Below, one piece after another: positions 13,431-31,610 of a stretch of 64,000 bases of DNA. Each line of letters begins with the position of its first letter. The first letter of the stretch is position 1. The notes beneath the pieces are model-generated. The model had not been told where the DNA came from. It did no database searches and saw nothing but the letters and a program-made list of their open reading frames with translations. The translations under genes were made by a program, and so were the position numbers. Origin of the DNA: Winogradskyella aurantiaca (GTDB lineage: Bacteria; Bacteroidota; Bacteroidia; Flavobacteriales; Flavobacteriaceae); contig NZ_QKTV01000005.1 of the NCBI RefSeq assembly GCF_003362725.1, positions 186,001-250,000 on the forward strand, given 5' to 3'.

Positions 13431-16400
13431 ATGAAAAAAAACATCCTATTGCTTGTATTGGCTTTATGTGCCTTTAGCTTAAGTCATTCACAAAAATCCA
13501 AAAAGAAATCTTCAAATACTACTAATTCTCATTTCCAGGATAGTCTAATTCACGGATTAAAATGGAGAAATATCGGCCCTTTTAGAGGTGGAAGATCCGT
13601 GACATCCACAGGGGTCACCGGTGACCCACTCACCTATTATATGGGCTCTACAGGTGGTGGAGTTTGGAAAACACAGGACGCAGGAATTTCCTGGAAGAAT
13701 ATTTCCGATGGCCATTTTAAAATGGGCACTGTTGGTGCCATTGCTGTGTCGGAATCTGATCCCAATATAGTCGTTGTAGGCATGGGTGAACACGCTGCCC
13801 GAGGTGTTATGACTTCAATGGGTGATGGTGTTTATAAATCAATGGATGCCGGAAAAACCTGGACGCATTTAGGCCTTGAAAAAACAAGACATATTTCAGA
13901 TGTTATCATTCATCCCACCAATCCAGACATCATCTTCATTTCAGCGCAAGGGGCTCAGTACGCCCCATCAGAAGACCGTGGAATTTACAAGACTACAGAT
14001 GGTGGAAAGAACTGGACCAAGGTCTTCTATATTGATACTACTACGGGTTGCTCATCCATAAGTATGGACTATAACAATCCAAGGATTTTATATGCCTCTA
14101 TGTGGCAACACCGACGTTATCCCTGGTACATGGAATCAGGAGGTAAAAGTTCTGGTTTATTCAAATCAACTGATGGAGGAACCACCTGGAATGAAATGAC
14201 TGAGGGATTACCAGAAGATTTAGGAAAATCTGGGATATCCGTTTCACGTGCAGATTCGGAAACGGTATACGCTGTCATTGAAGCAGAAGGCGAGAAAGCT
14301 GGAGTCTACAAATCTACCAATGCAGGCGATAAATGGACTCAGGTTAATAAAGACCGAATCAACATTACCAGATCATGGTATTATATGGAGATTTTTGCTG
14401 ATCCTCAAAATGCGAATGTGGTGTATGTGCTCAATGCCCCAGTAATGAAGTCCATTGATGGAGGTAAAAGCTTTTCAAATATTCCTGTACCCCATGGTGA
14501 TAATCATCATCTTTGGATCAACCCAAAGAACAATGAGGTCATGATTAATTCCAATGACGGTGGGGCTAACATCTCTTTTAATGGAGGTAAAAGCTGGAGT
14601 ACACAGAAAAACCAACCTACTGTTCAATTTTATAGGGTTATTACAGACAATCGTTTCCCTTATTACGTTTATGGCGGTCAACAGGACAATTCAACAGTAG
14701 CCATAGCTAGTAGAACCAATGATGGGGGAATTGGATGGAAAGATTGGTATGCCACGGCAGGTGGTGAAAGTGCCTATTTGGCTTTTGATCCTGATGATCC
14801 AACAACGGTTTATGGTGGTACTTACCAGGGAAATCTGAGTCGCTGGACTATGGATTCTAAAGAACAAAAATCCATCAAACAATATCCAGAACTAGGCCTG
14901 AGTATTGCACCTAAAGATTCTAAATACCGTTACAATTGGAATGCACCTGTAATTACTTCCCCCCACGATAGAAACACCATTTACCATGCTGGAAATATGG
15001 TATTTAAGAGTACCAACGAAGGACAAAGCTGGGAAGTGGTAAGTCCTGACCTTACTAAAAATGAGATAGAAAAGCATGGTCCTGGAGGAGGTCCTTTTAC
15101 GAACGAAGCAGCAGGAGGTGAAAATTATAATACGATTACGGCTTTAGTAGAATCCCAACATGAAGAGGGAGTTCTATATGCAGGAACAGATGATGGTACC
15201 CTTCAAGTGACAAAAGATGGAGGAGCTAACTGGACCAATGTTACTCCTAAGGGAATATCAGATGGCATCATTAATAGTATTGACATTTCAGAGCACGATC
15301 CAGCAAAAGTATACATTACGGTAATGCGCTATAAAAGTATGGATCTAACACCACACATTTTCAAATCATCTAATTATGGAAACTCCTGGACCAAGATTGT
15401 CTCTGGAATCGACGATCCTAATGGATTCGCAAGAGTGGTAAGGGCTGACAAAAAGAAAGATGGCGTCTTATACGCAGGAACAGAAGTGGGCATGTATCTA
15501 TCTGTAAATGATGGAGCAAGCTGGCAGAAACTACAATTAAACTTACCCATAACACCAATCAATGATTTAATTATTCAGGATAATGATTTGGTAGCTGCTA
15601 CTGGAGGGCGCGGATTTTGGATATTGGACGATCTGGCTGTATTTCAACAAGCTGATAAAAGTGATGCCTTAAAAATTTACCAACCAAAGGACACACCAAT
15701 ATTCTTTGGAGGGAACTCAAATGCAGTTGGCCAAGGACAAAACCCAAGATCAGGTGTACTTATTGATTATTTTCTGCCTGAAGAAGTTGACTCCTTGGAA
15801 CTCACATTAGAAGTACGTCAGGATGGTAAGCTTATTAGAAACTATAGCAGCAAAAAACCAGAAAATTTTAGAAGCTGGCCTGGTGGACCACCGTCACCTC
15901 AGGTTCTTCCCGCTAAACAGGGCTTTAACCGTTTTGCCTGGGGCTTTGATCGTAATTCACTACCACCAGTAGATGACGTCTTTGTGTTCGGGTATTTGGG
16001 TGGATCTACAGTTGCTCCTGGAACCTATTCCTTAAAGTTAACGCTTGGTGATACTTCTTCAGAAACAACAGTGAATGTGCTTCCAAATCCAGCAATAGAA
16101 GCATCTAAACAAGATTACATAGAACAACAAACCATGTTATTGACTATCGAAGAAACTGTGAAAGAAATGCACAATGCTGTCAATAATATGCGCTCTGCCA
16201 AGGCACAAATTAAGAACTTCGAAAAACTGCTTAAAAATCAAGAAGGTTCGGAGGATCTAATTACGAAAGGTAAAGAGCTTTCGAAACGCATTTCAACCTG
16301 GGAAGAAAACCTAATTCAACCAAAGCAAAAAACCTTTCAGGATGTGATCAATTTTAACAACAAACTCAATTCGCAATTGTTAAACCTAGCAGGCTATATA

Positions 16401-16574
16401 AATCAGGCAGATCCAAAGGTAACCCAAGGTGCAAAAGAGCGTTTAAAAGACCTTTTGGCAGATTGGCGTGTTTACAAGGATGAACACGATGCTATTGTTA
16501 GTAAAGAAATGGCTGATTATAACACAGCCTATAAAGCATTAAACTTACCTGCCATTGTATTAAAACAGAAATAA
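13431..16574 (+). CDS. Exported BNR / sortilin (VPS10)-like beta-propeller protein
   Basis: A 1047-residue protein with signal peptide (residues 1-20). The first 700 residues hold many Asp-box (S/TxDxGxTW) repeats, for example [33 protein letters not shown] and [11 protein letters not shown], the mark of BNR/sortilin-type propellers. An Ig-like stretch follows, then a helical coiled-coil C-terminus (about residues 900-1040). Databases often label such proteins 'glycosyl hydrolase', but no catalytic residues of a glycosidase family are visible. The gene runs straight into the Tricorn-like gene (24-nt gap), so a shared role in handling exported proteins or peptides is plausible. Confidence 0.8.
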
Positions 16575-16598
16575 TCATCAATCGTTAGCATTATCATT

Positions 16599-19500
16599 AT
16601 GAAACAACCATTCATCTACTTATTTATAGGTCTTTTGTTAGGACAACTGAGTATCGCTCAAGGAACCAGATTATTACGCGACCCTGACATTAGCGATACC
16701 CATATCGCATTTACTTACGGAAGCGATATCTGGATTGTTGATAAAACTGGTGGTCTGGCCAAACGCATCACCAGTACTCCAGCCATTGAAGCGCATCCCC
16801 ACTTTTCTCCTGATGGTAAGTGGATTGCATTTAGTTCCAATCGTGCAGGGGTCAGCAACGTTTATGTTGTTTCTATTGAGGGTGGTACTCCAAAACGACT
16901 TACCTGGCATCCAACAGGGTCCAGAGTTAGAGGATGGACTAATGATGGAAGCTCGGTACTTATGAGCAGTAGTCGGGATACGGCTCCAAGAGGTTACGAC
17001 AGACTTTATACCGTATCCGTTGATGGAGGTTTGCCAAAACTTATAAGCTCCCAATGGGGTTACGATGGAGACTATTCTCCAGACGCCTCTCAAATGATCA
17101 TTGATAAAATGGATCGCTGGGATGTGGAATGGCGCGCCTATCGAGGGGGACAAAATACTCCATTAATTATAATGGATTTGGATACGCAGAACGAAATCCT
17201 ATTACCAAATACAGATCGAACCACCGATATTAAACCACTATGGTTAAATGATAACATCTATTTCCTATCCGATCGTGATCTGGTAGCCAATATCTGGTCG
17301 TTTGACCCTTCCAATTCGCAACTCAGTCAAGTGACCCAATTTAAAGGCTCAGATATTAAAAATATCAATGGATATGGAAACACGCTTGTTTATGAAAGAG
17401 ATGGCTTTATTCATACTATGGATATAAGTTCCGGTAATTCCTCACAATTAAACATCGAGGTAGTTGGCGATTTCCCGTGGGCCGAAACCAAATGGGAAAA
17501 CGTAACAGGGCGAGCGCAATCAGCTTCGCTCTCCCCTAACGGTAAGCGTGTCATCCTGCAAGCAAGAGGAGACATCTTTACAGTGCCTATTGAAAATGGC
17601 GATTCCAGAAATATCAGCAACACCTCAGGAGTGGCAGACCGTAGACCATTATGGTCACCAAAAGGTGATAAGATTGCCTGGTTTTCAGATGCGAATAGAA
17701 AAAACTACCAATTGATAGTGAGTAATCAGGATGGTACAAAAATTTTAGACAAAATAGACATTGGTGAATCAAAATTAGGATGGAGTCCCAGTTGGTCTCC
17801 TGATGGGAGTCACATTGCCTTCGTAGATGACGATGTGCGTCTGAGAGTGGTTAATTTAAAATCGAAAAAGATCAAGACGATCGATATTGGTGGCATCAAC
17901 ATTGAGCGTGGTGCTATTGAATTAAAATGGTCTCCAGATTCGAAATGGATTGCCTACGCCAAAACGGGTGATAATATGCTTCGGCAAATTTATTTGTGGT
18001 CCAGAGATTCTGGATCATCAACGGCCATTACCGACCCTTTTGCAGATTCTTTCTCACCGGCATGGGATCTCAACAAAAAACAACTGTATTTCTTAGCAAG
18101 TACGAACATTGCCTTAGGATCTGGATGGGCCAATACCAGTTCCATGGCGTCGGATGAAACCTATGGTGCCTATGTTGTTAACCTGGACGCCGGCGACACC
18201 TCCCCGTTTAAACCTAAAAGTGATGAGGAAGACATAACAGAAGATGACGAATCGTCGAAGGATGAGAAAAAAGATGGAAAGGATAAAAAGAAGGAAGCTT
18301 CAGGTCTTAAAATAGATTTCGATAATATTGGTAGACGCACTTTGCCCATGCCGGTACCAGTAAGAAGTTATGCCTACATATTGGCGGGTCCTGAGAATAC
18401 AGCCTTTTTAGCAGAGCGTGTGCCCAATAGCCGAGGATTAACACTTCATAAGTTCGATCTTAAAAAGCAAGAGAGCAAAGAGTTTACAGCTGGCGCTAGT
18501 GGCACATTTATAACCCCAAATGGTAAACATATGCTCGCACGAATCAATGGTGGATGGAAGCTGGTAAAAACCAGCGGATCTAATGCCAAAGGGGCCAAAT
18601 CCATCAAACCAAACCTACAGATGAAACTCAACAGAACCGAAGAGTGGGAGCAAATGTTTGAAGAGGCCTGGCGTTATGAGCGTGATTATTTCTATGATCC
18701 TAATATTCATGGCCGGGATTGGAATGTTGTATACAAACGATATGCACCTTTAGTGCCTTTTATAAAACACAGAGCAGATCTCACCTATATTTTTGATCAA
18801 ATGAATGGAGAATTATCCGTAGGTCACAGCTTTGTTGGCGGTGGAGATTATCCAGAAGTAGAGCGCAACCAAGTAGGTCTTCTCGGCGCTGATTTTGGCC
18901 TTGAGAATGGACGTTACCAAATCAAACGAATCTACACCACAGAAAACTGGAATCCAGGATTAGAAGGACCCCTGGATGCCCCAGGATTAAATATAAAGGA
19001 AGGCTATTACATTGTTGGCATCAACAATCAGGAGCTCAGCTCAGATGATAACATATTTGAATTCTTAGACGGCACATCTGGAAAACAAACGGTATTACAT
19101 GTTAATTCCTCACCAGAATTCGATGGGCATTGGACTGAAATTGTAGAACCCTTGAGAAGCGAAAATTCCCTAAGGCAACGTACCTGGGTAGAAGACAACA
19201 GACGCCGTGTAGATGAACTCTCCAATGGAAGATTGGGCTACATATGGGTACCCAATACAGGGGGACCAGGGTTTGTGTCCTTCAATCGGTACTTTTTTGC
19301 ACAACAAAATAAGGAAGGAGCGGTGATAGACGAACGTTTTAATGGAGGAGGTTTATTGGACGACTACATGGTAGATCTTATGACCAGAAAAGTGCGCGCA
19401 GCATTAACCAATGAGGTCCCTAATGGAAAACCATTTACCTTACCCGCGGGAATTTTAGGTCCAAAAGTATTACTCATTAACGAGCTAGCCGGTTCTGGTG

Positions 19501-19838
19501 GAGATTATTTCCCATGGGTCTTTAGACAACAGAAGGCCGGTAAACTTATTGGTATGCGCACCTGGGGTGGCTTGGTTAAGTCCTCAACACACTATCTTAT
19601 GATTGATGGAGGACGATTAACTTCGCCTGATAATGCCGTTTTTGATCCTGTTAAGAACGAATTCATTGCTGAAAATGTTGGTGTGGCACCAGACATAGAA
19701 GTACGACAGGATGCTAAATCCTTGAATGCTGGTAGAGATGCACAGCTGGAACGTGCTGTAGAAGAACTAATGAAACAATTGGGTACTAAACAGGAAATAA
19801 AAGTACCAACCTATAATAAGCCGGCAATAGGCAATTAA
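16599..19838 (+). CDS. Tricorn-like S41 family peptidase, exported
   Basis: A 1079-residue protease with signal peptide (residues 1-20) and the full Tricorn layout: TolB-like propeller (about 25-330), second propeller (about 330-530), a low-complexity charged linker (about 535-570, rich in Glu, Asp and Lys), a C1 domain with HSFVGGG (H743), a PDZ-like region (about 770-850), and the C-terminal S41 core. The nucleophile is S966 in ELAGSGGDYFPW. The archaeal enzyme has its Ser at almost the same position. Tricorn cuts short peptides; here it would act in the periplasm. It lies in a run of exported peptidases. Confidence 0.92.
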   Translation: MKQPFIYLFIGLLLGQLSIAQGTRLLRDPDISDTHIAFTYGSDIWIVDKTGGLAKRITSTPAIEAHPHFSPDGKWIAFSSNRAGVSNVYVVSIEGGTPKRLTWHPTGSRVRGWTNDGSSVLMSSSRDTAPRGYDRLYTVSVDGGLPKLISSQWGYDGDYSPDASQMIIDKMDRWDVEWRAYRGGQNTPLIIMDLDTQNEILLPNTDRTTDIKPLWLNDNIYFLSDRDLVANIWSFDPSNSQLSQVTQFKGSDIKNINGYGNTLVYERDGFIHTMDISSGNSSQLNIEVVGDFPWAETKWENVTGRAQSASLSPNGKRVILQARGDIFTVPIENGDSRNISNTSGVADRRPLWSPKGDKIAWFSDANRKNYQLIVSNQDGTKILDKIDIGESKLGWSPSWSPDGSHIAFVDDDVRLRVVNLKSKKIKTIDIGGINIERGAIELKWSPDSKWIAYAKTGDNMLRQIYLWSRDSGSSTAITDPFADSFSPAWDLNKKQLYFLASTNIALGSGWANTSSMASDETYGAYVVNLDAGDTSPFKPKSDEEDITEDDESSKDEKKDGKDKKKEASGLKIDFDNIGRRTLPMPVPVRSYAYILAGPENTAFLAERVPNSRGLTLHKFDLKKQESKEFTAGASGTFITPNGKHMLARINGGWKLVKTSGSNAKGAKSIKPNLQMKLNRTEEWEQMFEEAWRYERDYFYDPNIHGRDWNVVYKRYAPLVPFIKHRADLTYIFDQMNGELSVGHSFVGGGDYPEVERNQVGLLGADFGLENGRYQIKRIYTTENWNPGLEGPLDAPGLNIKEGYYIVGINNQELSSDDNIFEFLDGTSGKQTVLHVNSSPEFDGHWTEIVEPLRSENSLRQRTWVEDNRRRVDELSNGRLGYIWVPNTGGPGFVSFNRYFFAQQNKEGAVIDERFNGGGLLDDYMVDLMTRKVRAALTNEVPNGKPFTLPAGILGPKVLLINELAGSGGDYFPWVFRQQKAGKLIGMRTWGGLVKSSTHYLMIDGGRLTSPDNAVFDPVKNEFIAENVGVAPDIEVRQDAKSLNAGRDAQLERAVEELMKQLGTKQEIKVPTYNKPAIGN

Positions 19839-19899
19839 AAAGATAAAGAAGGGATGGCCTCACATCGATAAGGCTTCACTTAGCGAATGTCATCAATTT

Positions 19900-20199
19900 A
19901 TGGAAAACTACCCTATAAGTCATCTCGCTATAAGCCTGGAAAAAGGGGCATTAGAATCGGCGCGTTACTTTATAGATGCTGGTGCAGATTTAGAGCTGGT
20001 CTGCTTTGATAAAACCCCTTTAATGTATGCGGTCAAACATGGTCACCTTGAACTGGTCACCTACTTAATAGAAAAAGGAGCACGAGTTGACGTCATTTCG
20101 GTAGAAGACAAAACTGCACTCGATTATGCCATTAAATACGGCCATCCTGAAATTGAAGCCTATTTAAGAACTGTGATATCCAAACCTAATACCAACTAA
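19900..20199 (+). CDS. Small ankyrin-repeat protein
   Basis: The 99-residue protein has no signal peptide. It contains about three ankyrin repeats, with the diagnostic cores [41 protein letters not shown] and [18 protein letters not shown] visible in part. Such small proteins mediate protein contacts. The gene lies 61 nt after the Tricorn-like gene and 13 nt before the DUF885-like gene, so it is probably in the same transcript. Its partner is unknown. Confidence 0.85.
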
Positions 20200-20212
20200 A
20201 CCCATTCTAATT

Positions 20213-21886
20213 ATGAATCTCACTCAAAAATCATATGTACTTATAATTGCCACCATTTTTTTCTTTAATTGTGAGCATAAGTCAAGCGTCACTGTTGAAA
20301 CCAAGGACCAATCTAGTTTTAAAACCTACGAGGAGTTAGTTGACTTATTTAAAGAATGGAGGGTTTTAGAAACGCCTCCGCTTCTAAATGGGGCTCCAGA
20401 TTACACAGCTGCTACGTATACCAAACGCTGGGAATCTTTTAAAAAACTGCAAAAACGACTTCAGCAAGCTGATACCACTGGTTGGTCCATACCTCAACAG
20501 GTAGATTATATGATCGTCTGGGCCGAGATGAATGGTTATGATTTTAACCACAGGATCCTCAAGTCATCGGCTCGCGATCCAGCGTTCTATAAAACAGTTT
20601 GGACTTATAAAAGCGATGTACCAGCTCATGAAGGGCCCACCCATCATGCCACCTTAGAGCTTTGGACCTACGACTTTCCTTTGAGCACTGAAGAACGATT
20701 TCGTTTTGTTTCAGATTTAAAAGTTATTCCAGCTTTAAATACCCAGGCACAACAAAACCTAACAGGTAATGCTAGAGATCTTTGGATAGCTGGAATCCGG
20801 GACATTGAAACACAAGCTTCAGTCTTGAAGGAAGTATTAGCATATCCAGGCGTTGCTGAAGACCCAGAACTGGTTGGTCTAATTGAGACATCCATAAGTT
20901 CTACAGAAGACTTTGCTAGCTGGCTTAAGACCGAAAGTGAAAATAAAACCGGTCCTTCTGGTATAGGTAAAGACAATTACACCTGGTATCTACAAAATGT
21001 GCATCTGGTCCCACTAAGCTGGGAGGACGAAGTAATGCTTCTAAAACGTGAATTAGCCAGAGCCTGGTCGGCCTTAAAATTAGAAGAGCACCGCAACAGG
21101 CACTTACCAGAATTGGTGGCTGTCGATTCGCCTGAAGCTTATGATGCTATGGCTGATGCCGCCGCAAGGAGTCTAATGACCTTCTTAGAAGAGCAGGACA
21201 TCCTAACTGTAAAGCCCTATTTTGACCCAGCGCTAAGGGAACAGCTGGGAAGTTTTATCCCAGAAGAAGAACGGAACTTTTTTAGAATTGGTCAGCACTA
21301 CGATCCAAGACCGCTCTTTTCACACTTTTACCATTGGTTTGAATTAGCCCGGATGGAAGAAGAGCCCAATAACAGTCCCATAAGACGCGGACCCCTACTC
21401 TACAATATTTTTGATTCCAGAAATGAAGGCATGGCAACGGCTGTAGAAGAGATGTTTTTACAAGCAGGCTTATACGACGATAGCCCACGATCCAAGGAAA
21501 TTGTATATATCATGATTGCCCAGCGGGCCGCTAGAGGACTGGGGTCTTTGTACGCTCATGCTAACGAAATGACCATGGAGGAAGCTGGAGGTATACACAG
21601 TGAGTATACCCCTAGAGGCTGGATGAAAACCGAAAAAGAGCTCCTCATATTTGAACAGCATTTGTACTTAAGACAACCTGGCTATGGTACCAGTTACATT
21701 ACAGGGAAATACCTATTGGAAGCAACAATGGCAGACTTTGCAAAGCAAAAGGAGACCATGAATAGTCCTTTCACTACCAAAGCGTTTTTTGACAGCTTAA
21801 ACAACATTGGGAATATTCCAATATCCTTAGGACATTGGGAATTAACAGGCTCAAAAGATCATTTAAGAACCATTTTAAATGATTAA
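20213..21886 (+). CDS. DUF885-like lipoprotein lacking the usual zinc motif
   Basis: A 557-residue protein with a lipobox-like FFFNC near residue 20. The C-terminal third carries DUF885-type blocks: [20 protein letters not shown], then a helix with [10 protein letters not shown], and [18 protein letters not shown]885 peptidases normally have an HExxPGHH zinc site before the first block. Here that region reads [15 protein letters not shown], so no intact HExxH is present. An HEGPTHH string occurs at residues 139-145, far N-terminal to the expected place. It may be a binding protein or inactive paralogue, or may use a diverged site. Its last 8 bp overlap the next gene. Confidence 0.65.
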
Positions 21887-22583
21887 ATATTTTCGCCATA
21901 TTCGCTTTAAATATATGAACCAAAACCAAACTTCACGCTACATAAAATACGCCATTGGAGAGATCATCCTGGTGGTTATAGGAATTTTAATTGCCCTTTC
22001 AATTAACAATTGGAATGAAGACAGAAAAGCAAGACAGCAAGAAATAAAATTGGTCTCCCAATTACTGGAAGATGCCAAAAACGATTCTATTTTTTATCAA
22101 TCACGATTACTCCTGTTTAACGGTCAAATCAGTACATATCGGCTACTCTTAAATCAGTGTGATGGTAGAATGGAATCCAACGATACCATTACCCTTAGAA
22201 ACGAAACCTCTCCTTTTACAATGGCTGCAGATCAGTCTATTGTAATGAGCAATAAAATTGACTACAATGATATTAGTGACGAAGCCATAAAAAGAAGACT
22301 TCGTGACTATGCTCTAAGCTATACCTACATTACCAAAGCCATATCAAATCATTCCAATTTAATCAGCAGTGAAATAAGAAATTTGGCTAAATCGCGCAAT
22401 TTGGATTTCGGAAATAATGAGGCAAAGTTAACCGAGTTTTCGGTCATATGTGATATTCCCAATATACAAGGAGTTTTGAGATTATGTTTGGGGTATTCCC
22501 AAAATGCCCAAGAACAAGCCGAAAGGTTTATTGCAAATAATGAAGCATTGATTGTATCGTGTAATGATTTTTTCAATAACTAA
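21879..22583 (+). CDS. DUF6090 family membrane-anchored protein
   Basis: A 234-residue protein with the hallmark N-terminus of DUF6090: [13 protein letters not shown], then a single membrane segment [22 protein letters not shown], then a helical soluble domain. Members are numerous and often clustered in flavobacterial genomes; no function is established. The start overlaps the end of the DUF885-like gene by 8 bp, suggesting translational coupling. Topology is probably a short cytoplasmic N-terminus with the helical domain in the periplasm. Confidence 0.85.
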
Positions 22584-22717
22584 TTTGTTCAAAAAAAGAC
22601 TATTTGAGAGCCTTTTCAACTCTAAGAGAAACTTAAAGAAAGATTAAATTCAGTCGCTTTATACAATAAGCCTTCTTCCAATTTGTATATTTAGAAACTA
22701 ACATTACAATACCCTTT

Positions 22718-24190
22718 ATGAAACAACTAATTACCTGTGCACTGGGCCTACTAATCGCATGCTCATGTGCCAAAGATGATAAAACCCTAACTGAAAAAAC
22801 GGTGAATCAGGAAACTATAAAAGAACACATATACTTCCTCACAGACGATTCTCTCAAAGGTCGGGAAACTGGCACCGCCGAGCTTAAAAAAGCAGCCGCC
22901 TACCTAGCTCGGCAGTTTGAATCCTATGGGGTGTCACCTAATCCAAAATCAGGCAATTACTATCAGGATGTTACCTTATCTCAAACAGCACCACCTGAAC
23001 TTTTAGCGGTAACCATTAACGAAAATCCCGCAACAGACCTTGTTGCCGTAAATGCTGGAAAAGCAGAATTCAACAATGCGGTTTACCTAGGGTATGGTAT
23101 GGAATCTGACTATGCCAACCAGGACGTGACAGGCAAAGTAGTGGTGCTTAAAGCTGGAAATGATCAAGCTAAGGATGCCCGCGCCGCTTATGGATTAAGA
23201 CAACAAAAACAAGAATTAGCCCAGTCCAATGGTGCCGTGGGCATCATTGAATTGTTAAATGCTCAAGACCAAATGTGGGGCTTCATCTATGACAGTTTTA
23301 CAAGAACCGGTGTCTCATTAAAACGTCCAGAACAAGAAGAATCTTCAGATTTTCCTTATGTCTGGGTATTGGATACCGACGCCATATTGGCAGATAACCT
23401 GGAATCCAATGGCCTGAAGTCCGCGAGTCTGAGCATGTCGGGCTCCAATAACAAAGACATCGTATCCTATAATGTTGTAGGCGTTGTAGAAGGCACTGAC
23501 CCAGTACTTAAGGATGAGTATATTATCTATTCAGCCCACTATGATCACGTCGGGATAGGAACTCCTGACGAATCTGGAGATGACATTTACAATGGTGCCA
23601 GAGATAATGCTGTTGGTACCACAACCGTTTTAAGTATGGCAGAGAATCTTGCTAAATATCCAACCAAGCGATCGGCTTTATTTATACTGTTCACAGGGGA
23701 AGAAAAGGGCTTACTAGGGAGTAGATTCTATGTTGACAATCCCATTTTACCTCTAGAACAGATGGTCTATTGTTTTAATAGTGACAATGGTGGTTATAAT
23801 GACACCTCATTAGCCACTATTGTTGGACTTTCCAGAACGACTGCAGAAAAACACATCATGAGGGCTGCTGATACTTTTGGATTAAAAGCTATTGACGACC
23901 CAGCAGGAGAGCAAGGGCTTTTTGACAGATCTGATAATGTGAATTTTGCTCGTAAGGGTATTCCAGCCCCTACCTATTCTTTGGGTTTTAGTGCTTTTGA
24001 TGCCGAGATCACTAAATATTACCACCAGCCAGGTGATGAGGCTGATACCTTAGACTATGATTACCTGTTGCAATTCTTCCAGTCTTATGTGTACTCTGGA
24101 CGATTAATTGCCAATGACCCTGAAACTCCAAGATGGACAGAGGGCGATAAATATGAACCTGTTTCGAAAGAACTTTATAATATCAATTAA
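22718..24190 (+). CDS. M28 family metallopeptidase, lipoprotein
   Basis: A 490-residue aminopeptidase-type lipoprotein. The lipobox LLIACSC falls at about residues 12-18, followed by Ala-Lys-Asp-Asp. The di-zinc site is intact: SAHYDHVG, GARDNAVG, TGEEKG, NSDNGG and a late His in YYHQPGDEAD. A PA-like insert (about residues 90-240) sits between the N-terminus and the catalytic core, as in many exported M28 enzymes. It should release N-terminal residues from peptides at the cell envelope. The S9 gene begins 3 nt after its stop, so the two form an operon. Confidence 0.93.
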   Translation: MKQLITCALGLLIACSCAKDDKTLTEKTVNQETIKEHIYFLTDDSLKGRETGTAELKKAAAYLARQFESYGVSPNPKSGNYYQDVTLSQTAPPELLAVTINENPATDLVAVNAGKAEFNNAVYLGYGMESDYANQDVTGKVVVLKAGNDQAKDARAAYGLRQQKQELAQSNGAVGIIELLNAQDQMWGFIYDSFTRTGVSLKRPEQEESSDFPYVWVLDTDAILADNLESNGLKSASLSMSGSNNKDIVSYNVVGVVEGTDPVLKDEYIIYSAHYDHVGIGTPDESGDDIYNGARDNAVGTTTVLSMAENLAKYPTKRSALFILFTGEEKGLLGSRFYVDNPILPLEQMVYCFNSDNGGYNDTSLATIVGLSRTTAEKHIMRAADTFGLKAIDDPAGEQGLFDRSDNVNFARKGIPAPTYSLGFSAFDAEITKYYHQPGDEADTLDYDYLLQFFQSYVYSGRLIANDPETPRWTEGDKYEPVSKELYNIN

Positions 24191-24193
24191 CAA

Positions 24194-26884
24194 ATGAAAC
24201 CCACCAACCCTTTATTCCTAAGCATTCTTTTAGTTGTCATCTCGCTTGGTATTCGAGCTCAAGATGCACAGAAATGGACGCCAGAAGATATTATTAACAC
24301 GGAGTCTATAGGATCAGTATCAGTGTCGCCAGATAATTCCATGGTCGTTTGGACCAAGCGCAAGGGGGTTAAATCAAAAGATGCCTTTGTATCCAATCTT
24401 TATTTAACAAGACTGGACATGGAAACAGATAAAGGGTTTAAAACCATTGCCTTGACCAATGGGGAGGACAATGACTACAATCCTATTTTCTCTAAAGATG
24501 GTGAATACCTCTATTTCCTATCATCTCGGGATAAGGGAAAAAACCTTTACAAATTAAGTATCTACGGGGGTGAAGCCCAAAAGGTGGCCAACTTTAAAAA
24601 CGGCATTTCATCCATACGATGGAAAGACGAAAACACGATATTGTATCAGTCCAATGATGGAAAGACGCTTTATGAGCAAGAGCTTGAGAAACTAAAGGAC
24701 AACGTGGTAGTGGTTGAAGATAGTGTTAATTGGAAACCCAATCATGTCTACGCATACGACCTTAATACTAAGAAGTCAACCCGGTTAACCAACAACCCAA
24801 AACCCTTGGCAGGTTATACAGTCTCAAGAACAGGCAAATGGCTAATCTATGGAATGAGTCGTAGTACCTACTATGCATCGGATGCCCAAAAGGAGCCTTT
24901 TCAATACTTGGTAAACACTGAAACGGGACAAGTAACTCAAATCCTCACAGATTTCGACTACCCAACTTATGGCTTCCAATTCACGGCAGATGATGCTGGC
25001 TTTTATTTCTCATCCGAATACGGATCTGACCCTGAATGGAATGGCGCTGGTATCAACGAGCTTTACTATTTTGATTTAGCCTCAATGGCTTATACCAAGG
25101 TTAATTTGGATTGGGATATGGGACATGCTGGAGGTTATCAAGTACAAGGCTCGGACGTTATTGTATCCTTGGCCAACAAAGCTACACGCCGTTTGGCATA
25201 TTACAAAAAGAATGGAAATTCATGGACTAAAAAGACCTTCGATCTCAAGGATAAAAACGATCATGTGTTTATTTACACCTTGAGTCTAGACGGTACTAAA
25301 ATGATCTACAATTACTCCACCGCCTCTCGCCTACCTCAGTTCCTTGTAGCGGACCTTAAGGGAGCAAAGATTTCAAATGAAAAAGAGTTGGTTAAACTCA
25401 ATAAAAAACTTGCTAAAAAGCCTATAACCAGAAGCGAGGTCATGGTATGGAAAGGATACAATGGTGAAGAAGTAACGGGCTTATTGTACTACCCAGAAAA
25501 CTATGAAGAAGGCAAACGCTATCCTTTAATGTTATCCATTCACGGGGGGCCTTCAGGAGTAGATTTAGACCGTTGGTCTGAGCGTTGGAGTACCTATCCA
25601 AACATATTAGCCCAACGTGGTATGTTTGTTTTTAAACCCAATTATCACGGATCATCAAATCACGGCCTTGACTTTGTAGAAAGTATTAAGAAGAACTACT
25701 ACGAACCGGAAATGGAGGACATCATGAATGGTATTGAGGTTTTAAATCAAGAAGGTAAAATAGATATGGATCAATTAGGTACCATGGGCTGGTCTAACGG
25801 TGCCATCATCACCACGATGTTAACAGTGCGCTATCCAGATATGTTTAAAGTGGCTGCCCCAGGGGCCGGAGATGTCAACTGGACCTCAGATTATGGTACC
25901 TGCAGATTTGGGGTGAGTTTTGACCAGAGTTATTTTGGTGGTGCTCCTTGGGATGATGTTAAGGGAAAAACCTATAACGAGAATTACATCCTAAAATCAC
26001 CGCTCTTTGAAATTGAGAAAATAAAGACTCCTACCATCATTTTTCACGGAAGTTCGGATCGCGCGGTTCCAAGAGATCAGGGATGGGAATATTATAGAGG
26101 ATTACAACAAGTAGGTAAAGCACCCGTGCGCTTTTTATGGTTTCCGGGACAACCTCATGGTTTACGAAAAATCACCCATCAATTGCGCAAAATGAAAGAA
26201 GAACTCAAGTGGATAGACACGTATCTCCTTAAAAAAGAACCAGACACTGGCAAGAGCTTTAAAAAGGACAGTCCACTAGCCCAACTAAAGGCCTTGGAAT
26301 CCGTAAGTACAGTGGACGGCTTGTATGGGATTGTAGCAAATAATTCTATCATTCCCGAAACCAGATTAGTTAAGGCTGATTCCATTGCCATTGGTGTCTT
26401 TGAGGTTACCAATGCACAATTCAAGGCTTATGATTCCGGCTTTAATTTTGATGTCGGTCAGGATAATTATCCCGCACTCGTAACTAAGCAACAGGCTCAA
26501 GAATATACACAATGGCTAAGTCAGCTTACCGGAGACACCTATAGATTGCCAAATGCTGGAGAAGCTGAAGAACTACACTCTATGGCTCATAAGGTAGGTG
26601 GTAAGGAGAACACCCTTAACAACTGGGCTGGCTACGCACTGGTTAAAAGTGATGCGATAAAACTTCAGGAACAGATTAAAAGCCTAAAACTAAGTCTACT
26701 GAAACCGGTAGGCAGCTACAAATCATCAAAAGTAAGGGAGGCTGTAGTTTATGATTTAGGCGGCAATTTGGCAGAACATTTTGACAATGGCGTTTATGGT
26801 TATAGTGCCTATGATTTTTGTGATCCGTCAGATTCTACTATGACATCCAGTTCGTATACTGGATTTCGCATAGTTAAAGAGTGA
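24194..26884 (+). CDS. S9 prolyl-oligopeptidase-type peptidase fused to an FGE/SUMF1-like domain
   Basis: An 896-residue exported protein. A signal peptide (residues 1-22) is followed by a propeller (about 35-400). The alpha/beta-hydrolase peptidase core (about 410-680) has a full triad: S534 in GWSNGA, D622 in HGSSDRAVP and H655 in GQPHG. After a short linker, residues about 725-896 match the formylglycine-generating-enzyme-like fold: FEVTNAQFKAY, YPALVTKQQAQEYTQWLSQ, YRLPNAGEAEEL, DLGGNLAEH and a terminal TGFRIV. The terminal motif lacks the GFRC cysteine of true FGE, so sulfatase activation by this domain is unlikely; carbohydrate or protein binding is possible. Confidence 0.9.
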   Translation: MKPTNPLFLSILLVVISLGIRAQDAQKWTPEDIINTESIGSVSVSPDNSMVVWTKRKGVKSKDAFVSNLYLTRLDMETDKGFKTIALTNGEDNDYNPIFSKDGEYLYFLSSRDKGKNLYKLSIYGGEAQKVANFKNGISSIRWKDENTILYQSNDGKTLYEQELEKLKDNVVVVEDSVNWKPNHVYAYDLNTKKSTRLTNNPKPLAGYTVSRTGKWLIYGMSRSTYYASDAQKEPFQYLVNTETGQVTQILTDFDYPTYGFQFTADDAGFYFSSEYGSDPEWNGAGINELYYFDLASMAYTKVNLDWDMGHAGGYQVQGSDVIVSLANKATRRLAYYKKNGNSWTKKTFDLKDKNDHVFIYTLSLDGTKMIYNYSTASRLPQFLVADLKGAKISNEKELVKLNKKLAKKPITRSEVMVWKGYNGEEVTGLLYYPENYEEGKRYPLMLSIHGGPSGVDLDRWSERWSTYPNILAQRGMFVFKPNYHGSSNHGLDFVESIKKNYYEPEMEDIMNGIEVLNQEGKIDMDQLGTMGWSNGAIITTMLTVRYPDMFKVAAPGAGDVNWTSDYGTCRFGVSFDQSYFGGAPWDDVKGKTYNENYILKSPLFEIEKIKTPTIIFHGSSDRAVPRDQGWEYYRGLQQVGKAPVRFLWFPGQPHGLRKITHQLRKMKEELKWIDTYLLKKEPDTGKSFKKDSPLAQLKALESVSTVDGLYGIVANNSIIPETRLVKADSIAIGVFEVTNAQFKAYDSGFNFDVGQDNYPALVTKQQAQEYTQWLSQLTGDTYRLPNAGEAEELHSMAHKVGGKENTLNNWAGYALVKSDAIKLQEQIKSLKLSLLKPVGSYKSSKVREAVVYDLGGNLAEHFDNGVYGYSAYDFCDPSDSTMTSSSYTGFRIVKE

Positions 26885-26933
26885 CAAAGGTTAAATCTGA
26901 ATTAAACAAGCTGGCTTAATCTGAGATATGCAG

Positions 26934-26941
26934 TAGCTTTG
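26934..26941 (+). promoter_or_regulatory. -7 promoter box (TAGCTTTG) for the 35-residue gene
   Basis: TAGCTTTG matches TAnnTTTG exactly and ends 20 nt before the ATG at 26962. It lies within the 382-bp gap between two long genes. Confidence 0.5.
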
Positions 26942-26961
26942 TAACTAACTAAATCAATAGT

Positions 26962-27069
26962 ATGTCTGGATTGGATGTGGTCATGGTGATTGCCGTGATT
27001 TTATTTGCTCGACTTGGGGTAAGACTCGTCACCCAATATTTGAAAATGCGTCGCAAAAAGGAGGAGTAA
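26962..27069 (+). CDS. Candidate 35-residue single-pass membrane protein
   Basis: A short frame from ATG 26962 to TAA 27067-27069. It begins MSGLDVVMVIAVILF and ends with the basic tail MRRKKEE, i.e. one hydrophobic helix with a positively charged C-terminus, giving an N-out or membrane-surface topology. A consensus -7 box lies just upstream. It is the only coding candidate with a start codon in the 26885-27266 gap. Small membrane proteins of this shape are often missed by annotation. No homologue can be named. Confidence 0.45.
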   Translation: MSGLDVVMVIAVILFARLGVRLVTQYLKMRRKKEE

Positions 27070-27266
27070 TTCTAGTTATTGATAATCATTCTGCTTTTAT
27101 AAAGGTTCATAACGATGGTGCCAAGGAGCTCATTTCTAAAATTGCAACAAAGCTAGACCAGTTTTAGGTCTGGTTAAAAATAAGATTTCATAGAACTGTT
27201 GAATCAACAACGTTTTTTTTCACATATCCCTAAACATCCGCGGAAAAAGTAGTCATAAATTGGATT
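27070..27266. other. Intergenic remainder with no supported feature
   Basis: This is the rest of the 382-bp gap. A weak stem (AGACC/GGTCT, about 27153-27169) lacks a T-run. A 29-codon plus-strand stretch ending near 27168 looks protein-like but has no start codon. I see nothing firm here. Confidence 0.4.
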
Positions 27267-27641
27267 CTACAAATCCCTGTAGAAGATCAGCCCATTAGAA
27301 AAGGGATCATAGATTCCAAATTCTCTTGTCCCCCACTCCGTATCTCTTAATTGGGTTTCCTTATGAAATACATTCTTAGAACTAAATTCATCATATAGAA
27401 CATCCACCTCATCGGTGTAGATGCGAAGTAATGGTCGGTCAACACCAGTTTGCCATTCATCTTTATGATGCCATTGAAGGTGTAAAGTAACACCATCCCT
27501 CAATAAACCAGCATAAGCTGGGGTCTCTGGATTATCCACAAAAGTTAATTTGAAACCTAGATTAGCACAATAATATTCAATAGCACTATTTACATCCTTA
27601 ACCGGTAATACGGGATGAATATTTTGAAGATATGCTGTCAT
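27267..27641 (-). CDS. VOC superfamily protein (glyoxalase / bleomycin-resistance type)
   Basis: A 124-residue single-domain protein with the paired beta-alpha-beta-beta-beta layout of the vicinal-oxygen-chelate fold: IHPVLPVKDVNSAIEYYCANLGFKL at the start and REFGIYDPFSNGLIFYRDL at the end. Such proteins bind small molecules or metals; the substrate is not predictable. The spacing of the possible ligands (His9, a central Glu/His, and a late Glu) differs from glyoxalase I, so a binding role as in bleomycin-resistance proteins is as likely. It is the last gene of a minus-strand operon, starting 1 nt after the DinB-like gene. Confidence 0.8.
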   Translation of the reverse strand: MTAYLQNIHPVLPVKDVNSAIEYYCANLGFKLTFVDNPETPAYAGLLRDGVTLHLQWHHKDEWQTGVDRPLLRIYTDEVDVLYDEFSSKNVFHKETQLRDTEWGTREFGIYDPFSNGLIFYRDL

Positions 27642-27642
27642 A

Positions 27643-28230
27643 CTAATCCCGGATGGTACCGGAAAAATGATTTACTTTTGAATTCATGGGATTACCACTA
27701 GCTCTACGTAGTGTAGCTATTTGACCACAATGCCAAATAGCATCTGCTATGGGTCCATTAACCTGATTCCAAAACGGAAATGAGTTGGATCCAAACATAA
27801 TTTTAAACTCTTCCATAGAATCGGCCTCACCAATAAGATCAACAGCAGCTTTCAAATTGTTTAAAGTGGCGACACGCAGTTCTTGAAAGTTCATAGTATT
27901 ATCCTTGCCACGCTTGTTGGTTTTCTTTTCAGCACTGTTTCTAATGATAAGAGACAGATCATACACATGTTTCATAGTATCACCAATGGACCTTGATTCT
28001 TCTGAAAGTTTGAATTCAAAATCATTGTCTTCAAGGCTTTCGGTAGCCCAATAAAAACGGAATCCTAATGACTCAATCATTCTTGCAGATACCGAATTTG
28101 CAGTAAAGGTTTCTGGGTACTCAGAAAGTTCTCTAAACGGTAGCTCGTTTTGAGATTCTTGAGCTTGCATAAGCAAGCACATAGTCAAACTCAAAGCACT
28201 AATCCCCAATAATTTTATCAAGTTATTCAT
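27643..28230 (-). CDS. Exported DinB/YfiT-like four-helix protein
   Basis: A 195-residue protein with a signal peptide (about residues 1-23, ending MQAQ). The mature part looks like the DinB/YfiT helical bundle: histidines in DTMKHVYDL and IADAIWHCGQIATLRRASGNP occupy the usual metal-ligand helices, with FRFYWATESL in the first helix. DinB-like proteins are usually cytoplasmic thiol-S-transferases or metal hydrolases; an exported form next to a TlpA-type lipoprotein is a flavobacterial habit. Its first 8 bp overlap the end of the TlpA gene. Activity is unknown. Confidence 0.7.
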   Translation of the reverse strand: MNNLIKLLGISALSLTMCLLMQAQESQNELPFRELSEYPETFTANSVSARMIESLGFRFYWATESLEDNDFEFKLSEESRSIGDTMKHVYDLSLIIRNSAEKKTNKRGKDNTMNFQELRVATLNNLKAAVDLIGEADSMEEFKIMFGSNSFPFWNQVNGPIADAIWHCGQIATLRRASGNPMNSKVNHFSGTIRD

Positions 28231-29317
28231 TTACTAATTTTAAAATATCAGTTTCCAGTTGCGTATTAAAACCAAAATACTCTTTGACAATAATTCCGTT
28301 TTGATCTACCAACAAATAGGTAGGCCAACCTTTAATATTAAATTGATCTAAAAAGGTCTGATCCTGGAAATAGTTATTAAACGTTATCTCTTTAGCTTCA
28401 ATTAGATCAAGGGCTTTATCCTTACTTTCAGTAGTGATGCCAACTACCAGTAAATCGTCTTTATAGCTTTGATACAAAGCCTCAACTTGAGGAAATGATT
28501 TAATACAAGGGCCACACCACACTTCCCAGAAATCCATTAATAGAATTTTATCGGTTTCTAGTTGGACAGCCTTTCCTGTTTGAATATCAGTAAGATTTAA
28601 CTCAGGTAACGCCTGGCCAATGTAAGGACTTGCTTCATACACCTCCGGTTCCAAAATGGTATAGTCTTTCAATATTGCCTTATAGCTATCGAAATCTGAA
28701 CCTACTTCTTTATTGATTTTTACATCGGAGAACGTAATGCTTGTACTTGTTTTTTCTCCTTGATTAATCGAAGAGACTTTAACACTGACTGGTTGGTAAT
28801 TTTCATCGAGGCTCACAACTTTAATTCGATCCATAATCAGGTAAAGTGAATCATCAGAATAGGTGTAGTACATATTAAATCCATGGTCAGTGGCCTCGGC
28901 CCAGCTGGAATCCTGCTTGGTTTCCAATTCAAAAAATGCATTGGATATAACCTGACCACCTGGGGATCCAGTAAAGTAATACCCTCCCGGGCTTACTTCA
29001 TATATTTTCTCTTCCATGTCCAGATCAAAATTCTTTCCTTGATCATAAATTGAGATCTGAGCTACATCATCGCGTTTACCGTAGAAGTTAAATCCAAAAA
29101 TGGTATCCTTCCTATTCCGTTCCAGATGTGCAAATCCCGAATTATCCCAAACACCTCCACCTGCAAAGGTGTCTATCCTTCGAACTCTATAAGACAACAA
29201 CTCAATTGAATCACTTACCCTTGTATAAGCTGTCGCTACTTCTTCATAGGATACATGACTTTTTTCGCAGCCCGAAATCATGAACAAGAGGATAAAGGGA
29301 ATAACTAATTGTTTCAT
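28223..29317 (-). CDS. TlpA-like thioredoxin-fold lipoprotein
   Basis: A 364-residue lipoprotein with lipobox MISGC (C17) followed by Glu-Lys. Residues 20-220 form a beta-rich domain of unknown family resembling outer-membrane LolA-like lipoprotein domains. Residues about 230-364 are a TlpA-type thioredoxin domain with active site WCGPC (in DFWEVWCGPCIKSF) and the cis-Pro loop GWPTYLL. It probably reduces or exchanges disulfides in the periplasm. It lies 3 nt after the M28 gene and overlaps the DinB-like gene. Confidence 0.88.
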   Translation of the reverse strand: MKQLVIPFILLFMISGCEKSHVSYEEVATAYTRVSDSIELLSYRVRRIDTFAGGGVWDNSGFAHLERNRKDTIFGFNFYGKRDDVAQISIYDQGKNFDLDMEEKIYEVSPGGYYFTGSPGGQVISNAFFELETKQDSSWAEATDHGFNMYYTYSDDSLYLIMDRIKVVSLDENYQPVSVKVSSINQGEKTSTSITFSDVKINKEVGSDFDSYKAILKDYTILEPEVYEASPYIGQALPELNLTDIQTGKAVQLETDKILLMDFWEVWCGPCIKSFPQVEALYQSYKDDLLVVGITTESKDKALDLIEAKEITFNNYFQDQTFLDQFNIKGWPTYLLVDQNGIIVKEYFGFNTQLETDILKLVNE

Positions 29318-29320
29318 AGC

Positions 29321-30739
29321 TTATTTTTTAGGCTCGGGAATTTTCTCAATGGGATTGAGACCATATTTATCAAACAAATACACCAAAGATGTCATCGTTG
29401 CAGCTCCTAGTTCCAATTCGCGTTTATTAACGTGCTCGAATGTATCATTAGAGGCGTGATGGTGGTCAAAATAGCGCTGCGAATCTGGTCGGAGACCAGC
29501 CAATACCATATTATCAGCCTTAAGCGGACCTATATCAGCACCACTTCCACCACGTTCAAAATAATGGATTAAATAGGGCTTGAAAAGCGGTTTCCACGAT
29601 AACACTTGATTAAAATGAGACTCGCTGGCATCAAAGGAAAACCCCCTTGGTGTGAAACCACCAGCATCACTTTCCAAAGCGAAAATATGACGCTCCCCCT
29701 TTTGCTTGGCCACCTCGGCATATTTCCGCCCCCCTCGTAAACCATTTTCTTCATTCATGAATAACACAACACGAATAGTACGTTTCGGTCGTATCCCCAT
29801 TTCTTTAAAAAGCCTTAATACCTCCATTGATTGTACCACCCCAGCACCATCATCATGAGAACCATCACCAAGATCCCAGCTATCTAGATGCCCCCCAACA
29901 ATTATTATCTCCTTGGGAAATTCGCTACCGGTAATTTCGGCAATAACATTGTGGGATTCCACATCCTTTAACTGACGGCAGTTTTGCTTAAAGTAAAACT
30001 GGATATTAGGTTGTAAGCTCAGCATACTACTTAACAAATTGGCATCATTGGTACTAATAGCTGCTGAAGGGATGCGCTCAGACACTGGTAAATCCCCATA
30101 ACTCATAGCTCCTGTATGTGGGTAATCATCATCTCTTAAATTCATTGATCGAACGATCACACCAATAGCACCATATTTGGCCGCTTCTTTAGCACCTGAA
30201 TAGCGCTGATTGACACAGCCACCATATGCTTCGAACGTGCTTATAAGATCTGGTTGCATGGGGCGATTATAGAACACTATTTTTCCATCTATTTTTTCAC
30301 GCCCAAGCTCTTCTAATTCTTCAAAGCTTTTGACTTCAACCAATTGTGATTTAATACCAGCAGCATTCGTAGCCACAGACCCGCCTAAGGCACAGATGTT
30401 TACGCTTGTTGTTTTTCCAGGTGCAGTTTCAAAATAAGCAAACTCTTTGGCACCTCTAATCCACTTAGGTACCATCACTGGCTGTAACCAAACTTTATCA
30501 AATCCCAATGCCTCAAGTTCAGCCTTAGTATACTTTACGGCACGTTCTGCATTTAATGAACCTGATAAACGCCCCCCTATTTGATTGGATAAATGATCTA
30601 ACCATGTATAGCTCTTGCCGTTTGTAAGCGATTGGGTATAAATATTGCGTAGCACCTCAGCATCGGTTTGGGCATAACTACAATTCAGAATTAAGCTAAT
30701 CCCAATAACTAATCCTATGTTAAAAAATGTTTTACTCAT
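29321..30739 (-). CDS. M28 family carboxypeptidase Q-like metallopeptidase
   Basis: A 472-residue exported peptidase when started at the ATG at 30739. That ATG overlaps the PPK2 stop by 8 bp (ATGAGTAA), a typical coupled junction; a longer start at 30766 is possible. It has a signal peptide with a hydrophobic core about residues 6-23. The di-zinc site is complete: GGHLDSWDLG, HDDGAG, NEENGLRGG, ESDAGGF and FDHHHASNDT. A PA-like insert lies before the core. This is the second M28 enzyme in the window and is more like carboxypeptidase Q than the one at 22718. Confidence 0.92.
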   Translation of the reverse strand: MSKTFFNIGLVIGISLILNCSYAQTDAEVLRNIYTQSLTNGKSYTWLDHLSNQIGGRLSGSLNAERAVKYTKAELEALGFDKVWLQPVMVPKWIRGAKEFAYFETAPGKTTSVNICALGGSVATNAAGIKSQLVEVKSFEELEELGREKIDGKIVFYNRPMQPDLISTFEAYGGCVNQRYSGAKEAAKYGAIGVIVRSMNLRDDDYPHTGAMSYGDLPVSERIPSAAISTNDANLLSSMLSLQPNIQFYFKQNCRQLKDVESHNVIAEITGSEFPKEIIIVGGHLDSWDLGDGSHDDGAGVVQSMEVLRLFKEMGIRPKRTIRVVLFMNEENGLRGGRKYAEVAKQKGERHIFALESDAGGFTPRGFSFDASESHFNQVLSWKPLFKPYLIHYFERGGSGADIGPLKADNMVLAGLRPDSQRYFDHHHASNDTFEHVNKRELELGAATMTSLVYLFDKYGLNPIEKIPEPKK

Positions 30740-31610
30740 TCTTAAGTTGTTCTTTATACTCTTCAATATTTTGTTTTAATTCAATTGGCAAATCGGGTTC
30801 CTTAATATCTGTATACTTGGACAAGGTGTCATACAACACTTTAGCAACTATATATCGTGCCGTGGCCTTATCATCTGCAGGAATACTAAACCAAGGTGCA
30901 TTTGGTTTTGAAGTGTGATTTAGAACTTCTTGGTAACAAAATTGATAGTCATCCCAAAGGGCCCGTTCTTTTAAATCACTAGGAGAAAATTTCCAATGCT
31001 TATTGGGCTTGTTGAGGCGTCGCAACAATCTGTGTTTTTGTTCATCTTTAGACAGGTTAAGGAAAAACTTAATCACTATTGTACCGTTATCAGCAATGAA
31101 TTTTTCAAAATTATTGATCTCTTCAAAACGGCGTTGCCAAAAAGCTTCTGTAACATCTTCTACCGAATTGATATCAGGCATGTTCTCATTTAATAGGTAT
31201 TTGGGATGAACACGTGTTACTAGTACGTTTTCATAATGAGTTCGATTAAATATGCCAAATATTCCCCTAGGTGGTAAGCGAACAAAATGCCTCCAGAGAT
31301 AATTATAACCTAATTCCAGTGATGTGGGTTGTTTAAAGCTATGTGAGTCTACTCCACGTACATTAAACTCCTTAAAAACTTCTCTAATTAAACTGTCCTT
31401 ACCAGCGGTATCCATTCCTTGAATGCACATGAGTACCGAGTACTTACCATGTGCATACATGGTATTTTGAAGGTCTGCCAAATCTACACTTACCTTACGG
31501 AGTTCCTTTTCTATTTTCTTTTCTGAGGCCTCCAAATCATAAGTTGTAGAGAGTTCCGACATCTCAATAGGTCCGTCAATTTTAAAGTCGTTTATATTAA
31601 TCTTTTTCAT
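30732..31610 (-). CDS. Polyphosphate kinase 2 family protein
   Basis: It transfers phosphate between polyphosphate and nucleotides in the cytoplasm. The 292-residue form begins MKKININDFK at 31610, 7 nt after the regulator gene; a longer frame would overlap that gene by 71 nt and looks spurious. The P-loop GMDTAGKDS (within MCIQGMDTAGKDSLI), the RPP-type lid motif HFVRLPPRGIFGIFNRTHYENVL, and the C-terminal PWFSIPADDKATARYIV segment mark one-domain PPK2. The subclass (AMP versus ADP phosphorylation) cannot be settled by eye. It is co-transcribed with an NtrC-like regulator. Confidence 0.92.
   Translation of the reverse strand: MKKININDFKIDGPIEMSELSTTYDLEASEKKIEKELRKVSVDLADLQNTMYAHGKYSVLMCIQGMDTAGKDSLIREVFKEFNVRGVDSHSFKQPTSLELGYNYLWRHFVRLPPRGIFGIFNRTHYENVLVTRVHPKYLLNENMPDINSVEDVTEAFWQRRFEEINNFEKFIADNGTIVIKFFLNLSKDEQKHRLLRRLNKPNKHWKFSPSDLKERALWDDYQFCYQEVLNHTSKPNAPWFSIPADDKATARYIVAKVLYDTLSKYTDIKEPDLPIELKQNIEEYKEQLKNE

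Follow-up and report, generated by a model that had tools for sequence, protein, structure and literature searches.

An S9 peptidase of Winogradskyella aurantiaca is fused to an FGE-like domain that lacks the active-site cysteine pair

What does a domain of the FGE/SUMF1 family do at the end of a serine peptidase? This question is raised by a gene in a 64,000-nucleotide stretch of the Winogradskyella aurantiaca genome (the window; all coordinates below refer to it), which an earlier note, made from the sequence alone, had read as an S9 peptidase fused to an FGE-like domain. We examined the composition of the predicted protein, the state of the FGE active site in its C-terminal tail, and the distribution, origin and gene neighbourhood of the fusion, which we refer to as S9-FGE. 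We found no description of such a fusion in the open-access literature.

Gene and domain organization

The S9-FGE gene (24194..26884, + strand) is a single intact open reading frame, running from ATG to TGA and encoding 896 amino acids. Residues 1-23 (MKPTNPLFLSILLVVISLGIRAQ; 24194..24262, +) form a probable Sec signal peptide, judged from sequence alone, and reading of the N-terminus found no lipobox Cys; we infer that the protein is probably exported to the periplasm or cell surface. An N-terminal beta-propeller region (residues 28-410; 24275..25423, +), with a PD40 match at residues 87-119, is followed by an S9 alpha/beta-hydrolase catalytic domain (residues 411-680; 25424..26233, +), in which Peptidase_S9 (PF00326) matches residues 468-678 at 131.3 bits against a cut-off of 22.6 bits. 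The complete Ser-Asp-His triad proposed in the earlier note is borne out: Ser534 (in GWSNGA; 25793..25795, +), Asp622 (26057..26059, +) and His655 (26156..26158, +) occur in this order and are invariant among the orthologues of two alignments (A1 and A5). The S9 catalytic domain appears intact and of the serine oligopeptidase type.

The peptidase part resembles S9 enzymes of the Dpp5 / acylaminoacyl-peptidase type (NF053518; PDB 8wt1, 7ep9), which likewise combine a propeller, an alpha/beta-hydrolase and a Ser-Asp-His triad. PDB 8wt1 aligns with S9-FGE residues 32-678 (E 1.2e-36), but chains of the 8wt1/7ep9 type stop where the S9-FGE tail starts. No named equivalog fits the peptidase or its group of orthologues; S9-FGE scores 153.8 bits against a cut-off of 900 for Dpp5 (NF053518), and 86 bits against 400 for the lasso isopeptidase equivalog.

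The tail is related to the FGE/SUMF1 family

Beyond the peptidase lies the FGE/SUMF1-like C-terminal domain (residues about 705-896; 26306..26881, +), which is supported by PF03781, by profile matches in the PDB and by conservation among orthologues. The earlier note had set this domain at residues 725-896; the domain itself stands, and its start lies nearer residue 705. When the whole protein was searched, PF03781 matched residues 757-864 at 18.8 bits, below the cut-off of 23.3 bits, and residues 680-896 taken alone reached 24.6 bits, above it. The 16 orthologues in alignment A5 all give a PF03781 match with E of at most 0.01 (best 8.3e-13), and the reading as an S9 peptidase fused to an FGE-like domain is supported.

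Matches to the PDB were weak when the single tail sequence was used (best E 0.016). A profile of the tail family matched ToxD, PvdO and PorK (best E 7.8e-7), and one that took in more distant orthologues matched PorK (2.7e-13), ToxD (9e-11), PvdO (1.5e-8), CalU17 and FGE, making PorK the best PDB match of the tail profile. Sequence identity between the tail and true FGE is low, and AlphaFold2 run from two-row alignments returned pLDDT values of 34.2 for the tail alone and 36.2 for the whole protein.

The FGE-family motifs quoted in the earlier note are present in the protein. Scaffold residues E737, R784, P786, E790, D854, G857, N858, E861, G890 and R892 show no variation in alignments spanning Flavobacteriaceae and more distant relatives. 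Alignment with FGE identifies R784-E790 as the RLPxxxE block common to the family (26543..26563, +), and D854-E861 form a DxxGNxxE block (26753..26776, +) with invariant D, G, N and E, the counterpart of a loop in FGE that probably binds structural Ca2+.

The tail lacks the FGE active-site block

A normal FGE (PF03781, 262 bits) is encoded elsewhere in the same genome. Compared with this enzyme, the tail retains EVTN, RLPxxxE, DxxGNxxE and GFR, the blocks that it has in common with FGE/SUMF1 (PF03781), and is missing the GGSFLCNDSYC block. The stretch between the GNxxE loop and GFR (26777..26860, +) is much shorter than in FGE, and the GGSFxCxxSYC active-site block is absent from it; this strong shortening supports the description of the domain in the earlier note as short and degenerate. 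The only Cys of the segment, C876, is not conserved among orthologues, and the active-site Cys pair (336/341 in human FGE) is not present in the tail in our alignment.

In human FGE the active site consists of Cys336 and Cys341, and Cys365 forms a structural disulphide with Cys218 (PMC4505483). The cysteines of SFLCNDSYC and GFRC in the genome's own FGE are 5 and 24 residues apart, and because these spacings fit positions 336/341/365, the GFRC Cys is the structural disulphide Cys and not part of the copper site. In the tail, the GFR motif (G890-R892; 26861..26869, +) is followed by Ile where FGE has this structural Cys. The earlier note had seen the Ile correctly but had taken the residue that it replaces for a copper-site Cys, a role that does not hold given that the equivalent Cys365 is structural (PMC4505483). 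Its conclusion that the tail is unlikely to make formylglycine survives on other grounds than the GFRI sequence: since the whole cysteine-pair block is missing, formylglycine formation by the tail is, judging from the alignments, very unlikely. The tail therefore differs from FGE/SUMF1 in having neither the active-site cysteine-pair block nor the structural GFRC Cys, and in being fused to a peptidase.

The tail might have kept some other enzymatic activity, for example an oxidation like that attributed to PvdO or a metal-dependent one of the EgtB/OvoA type, but we consider this highly improbable. Weak matches to the PvdO and OvoA models were obtained for 7 and 2 of 16 members, respectively, but the score of the whole protein is 18.5 bits, where the cut-off for PvdO (NF051459) is 500, over scaffold blocks that are family-wide, and the strongly shortened segment after the GNxxE loop also speaks against this reading. 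As a separate observation, the window's genome contains an FGE-sulfatase match with an in-frame TAA (L011; G000:C10:374997-375326), possibly a decayed copy.

Distribution and origin of the fusion

The earlier note had raised the conservation of the fusion in other flavobacteria, and a survey with the tail as query gave strong matches in 13 of 397 Flavobacteriaceae genomes, that of the window among them (E of 4e-43 or lower), and each match lies in a long open frame. The peptidase query recovered the same 13 genomes and one more, G111 (E below 1e-120), in which the contig start truncates the gene ahead of the tail. A scan of 345 genomes from the phylum added 15 in which the two parts are both present. 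Within the class of G670, 34 of 195 genomes have the peptidase at E below 1e-100, and the tail was present in 30 of the 30 loci fetched from these (a count that leaves out G989, G994, G1054 and G1064), one of them truncated by a contig end within the tail. With each genome counted once, the fusion is present in 44 of the genomes surveyed (13 + 15 + 16), and one named record, from Winogradskyella alexanderae, carries it too. The genome survey covers one phylum, with only a narrow peptide-pattern scan beyond it.

No tail-less orthologue was seen among the surveyed loci examined, once those truncated by a contig end ahead of the tail are set aside. The tail is absent from the eight S9 proteins that rank next, which are 28-32% identical and have open frames of 662-732 aa. 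Because the examined orthologues are all tailed and these next-nearest S9 proteins are tail-less, the tail characterizes one clade of the peptidase. The presence of the fusion in 44 surveyed genomes and in W. alexanderae refutes both a chance arrangement and a sequencing or assembly fusion of two genes, and the frame in the window has no stop or frame break. Two kinds of related protein were also noted. In one family covered by the class survey (f68), the fused proteins (L149-L152) are longer (open frames 980-1016 aa), and the two that were read, L149 and L152, have an insertion in the propeller region. An FGE-domain protein of the same order (L065:73-2079), with PEGA-like repeats recognized by eye, matches the tail profile weakly (E 2.9e-12).

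Trees of the peptidase and of the tail, built for 29 sequences, have 18 of 26 splits in common, 13 of which reach a support of at least 0.9 in each tree, and the one supported conflict concerns the deep placement of a single sequence (L087). Since the two trees agree, a single old fusion is the simplest reading, and the sequences probably reflect one such event followed by joint inheritance. It follows from the patchy distribution (13/397 in the family) that there were losses, transfers or both. Two distant relatives (L088 and L090) retain a more FGE-like end, VRGG/IRGG...DP...GFR, and by sequence ends of this type look intermediate between FGE and the tail.

NG86 omega for the tail is 0.06-0.18 in five close pairs, indicating that the tail is under purifying selection. 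Across 14 sequences, mean pairwise identity is 56% for the tail, 58% for the propeller and about 81.5% for the catalytic domain. The similar divergence of tail and propeller, together with the constant association of tail and peptidase, would fit a tail that only stabilises the peptidase fold, with neither partner nor ligand. We consider this unlikely, although the evidence against it, the invariance of the FGE scaffold residues across Flavobacteriaceae and more distant relatives, is weak because a stabiliser also needs its fold.

A proposed docking or substrate-positioning role

Because the catalytic cysteines have been lost yet the tail is kept in every checkable relative, it has probably turned into a binding or docking part. 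Our preferred reading, to which we assign a probability of about one half, is that the tail serves as a non-catalytic FGE-fold module for docking or substrate positioning. Such a module would tether the peptidase to a binding partner or to the peptidase's own second subunit; alternatively, it would place peptide substrates near the propeller/hydrolase cleft, and in either case the surface used would be the FGE surface that binds the sulfatase peptide.

Precedent exists within the same phylum, in PorK, GldK and GldJ of type IX secretion and gliding, in which the catalytic cysteines are lost as they are in the tail. The FGE-like fold of PorK has lost both catalytic cysteines, and its former substrate groove docks PorN, making it a docking hub (PMC12421860). 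There are differences, as PorK carries large insertions within its FGE fold and forms a ring with PorN, whereas S9-FGE has a short tail on an enzyme. The traits that define PorK/GldK, a lipid anchor and these large insertions, were not found in S9-FGE, whose N-terminus has no lipobox and whose FGE-like domain is short, so that the likeness is at family level only. A peptidase is likewise joined to an FGE-sulfatase domain in bacterial metacaspase (C14)-FGE-sulfatase fusions, of which 33 sequences have been reported (PMC3501461), but metacaspases are caspase-type cysteine peptidases of another fold and mechanism, and kinship with the S9-FGE fusion is not implied.

More tentatively, S9-FGE may represent a distinct, undescribed S9 subfamily in which an FGE was acquired in a single event, gave up its chemistry and now acts as a substrate-selecting or docking domain, with the old sulfatase-peptide groove presenting peptides or a partner to the serine protease. 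The fusion is a clean natural example of an enzyme domain that loses its activity and is retained by an unrelated enzyme as an accessory domain, and the tail would be the phylum's second use of inactive FGE folds, beside the secretion ring. For such proteins, annotation based solely on the FGE domain would be misleading.

Gene neighbourhood

An M28 peptidase gene (PF04389, 129 bits; 22718..24190, +) ends 3 bases upstream of the S9-FGE gene on the same strand, and the two are probably co-transcribed. They lie in a region of the window (13431-30766) that holds probably secreted peptidases and a Vps10-like gene: Sortilin-Vps10 (13431), tricorn-like S41 (16599), M28 (22718), S9-FGE (24194) and a further M28 (29321, minus strand). 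A conserved operon partner was found only in part in the orthologue loci examined, where tricorn-like S41, Vps10-like and M28 genes recur, none of them in all. The loci with tricorn-like or Vps10-like genes close to the orthologue are L053, L054, L056, L058 and L059; those with an M28 relative are L053 and L014; and a gene for a PLP-dependent decarboxylase (diaminopimelate/ornithine type) occurs in L014, L052, L058, L059 and L061. This suggests a secreted-peptidase gene cluster with no fixed partner.

The neighbourhood also bears on whether the tail could bind glycans or other small ligands, as the earlier note had suggested, and so recruit the peptidase to glycosylated or sulfated substrates. 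A sulfatase gene within the same window (11714-13336) is in keeping with this, as are the relatedness of the FGE and C-type-lectin-like folds and a weak match of the tail profile to Treponema variable protein 1 (2y3c, E 0.0045), a protein of the same fold class. However, no relative of this sulfatase turned up close to the S9-FGE gene in the other loci inspected, no carbohydrate-binding motif was recognized in the tail, and we regard ligand recruitment of this kind as unlikely. Docking is ranked above glycan binding because PorK/GldK, the best-documented precedent in the phylum, uses an inactive FGE fold for protein-protein docking (PMC12421860).

The sulfatase (11714-13336, +; PF00884, 188 bits) is itself unusual in one respect. 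The usual sulfatase activation motif is C-x-P/A-x-R, and the likely activation site here, CAVTR (from APYCAVTRAMVLTG), has Val where the usual motif has Pro or Ala.
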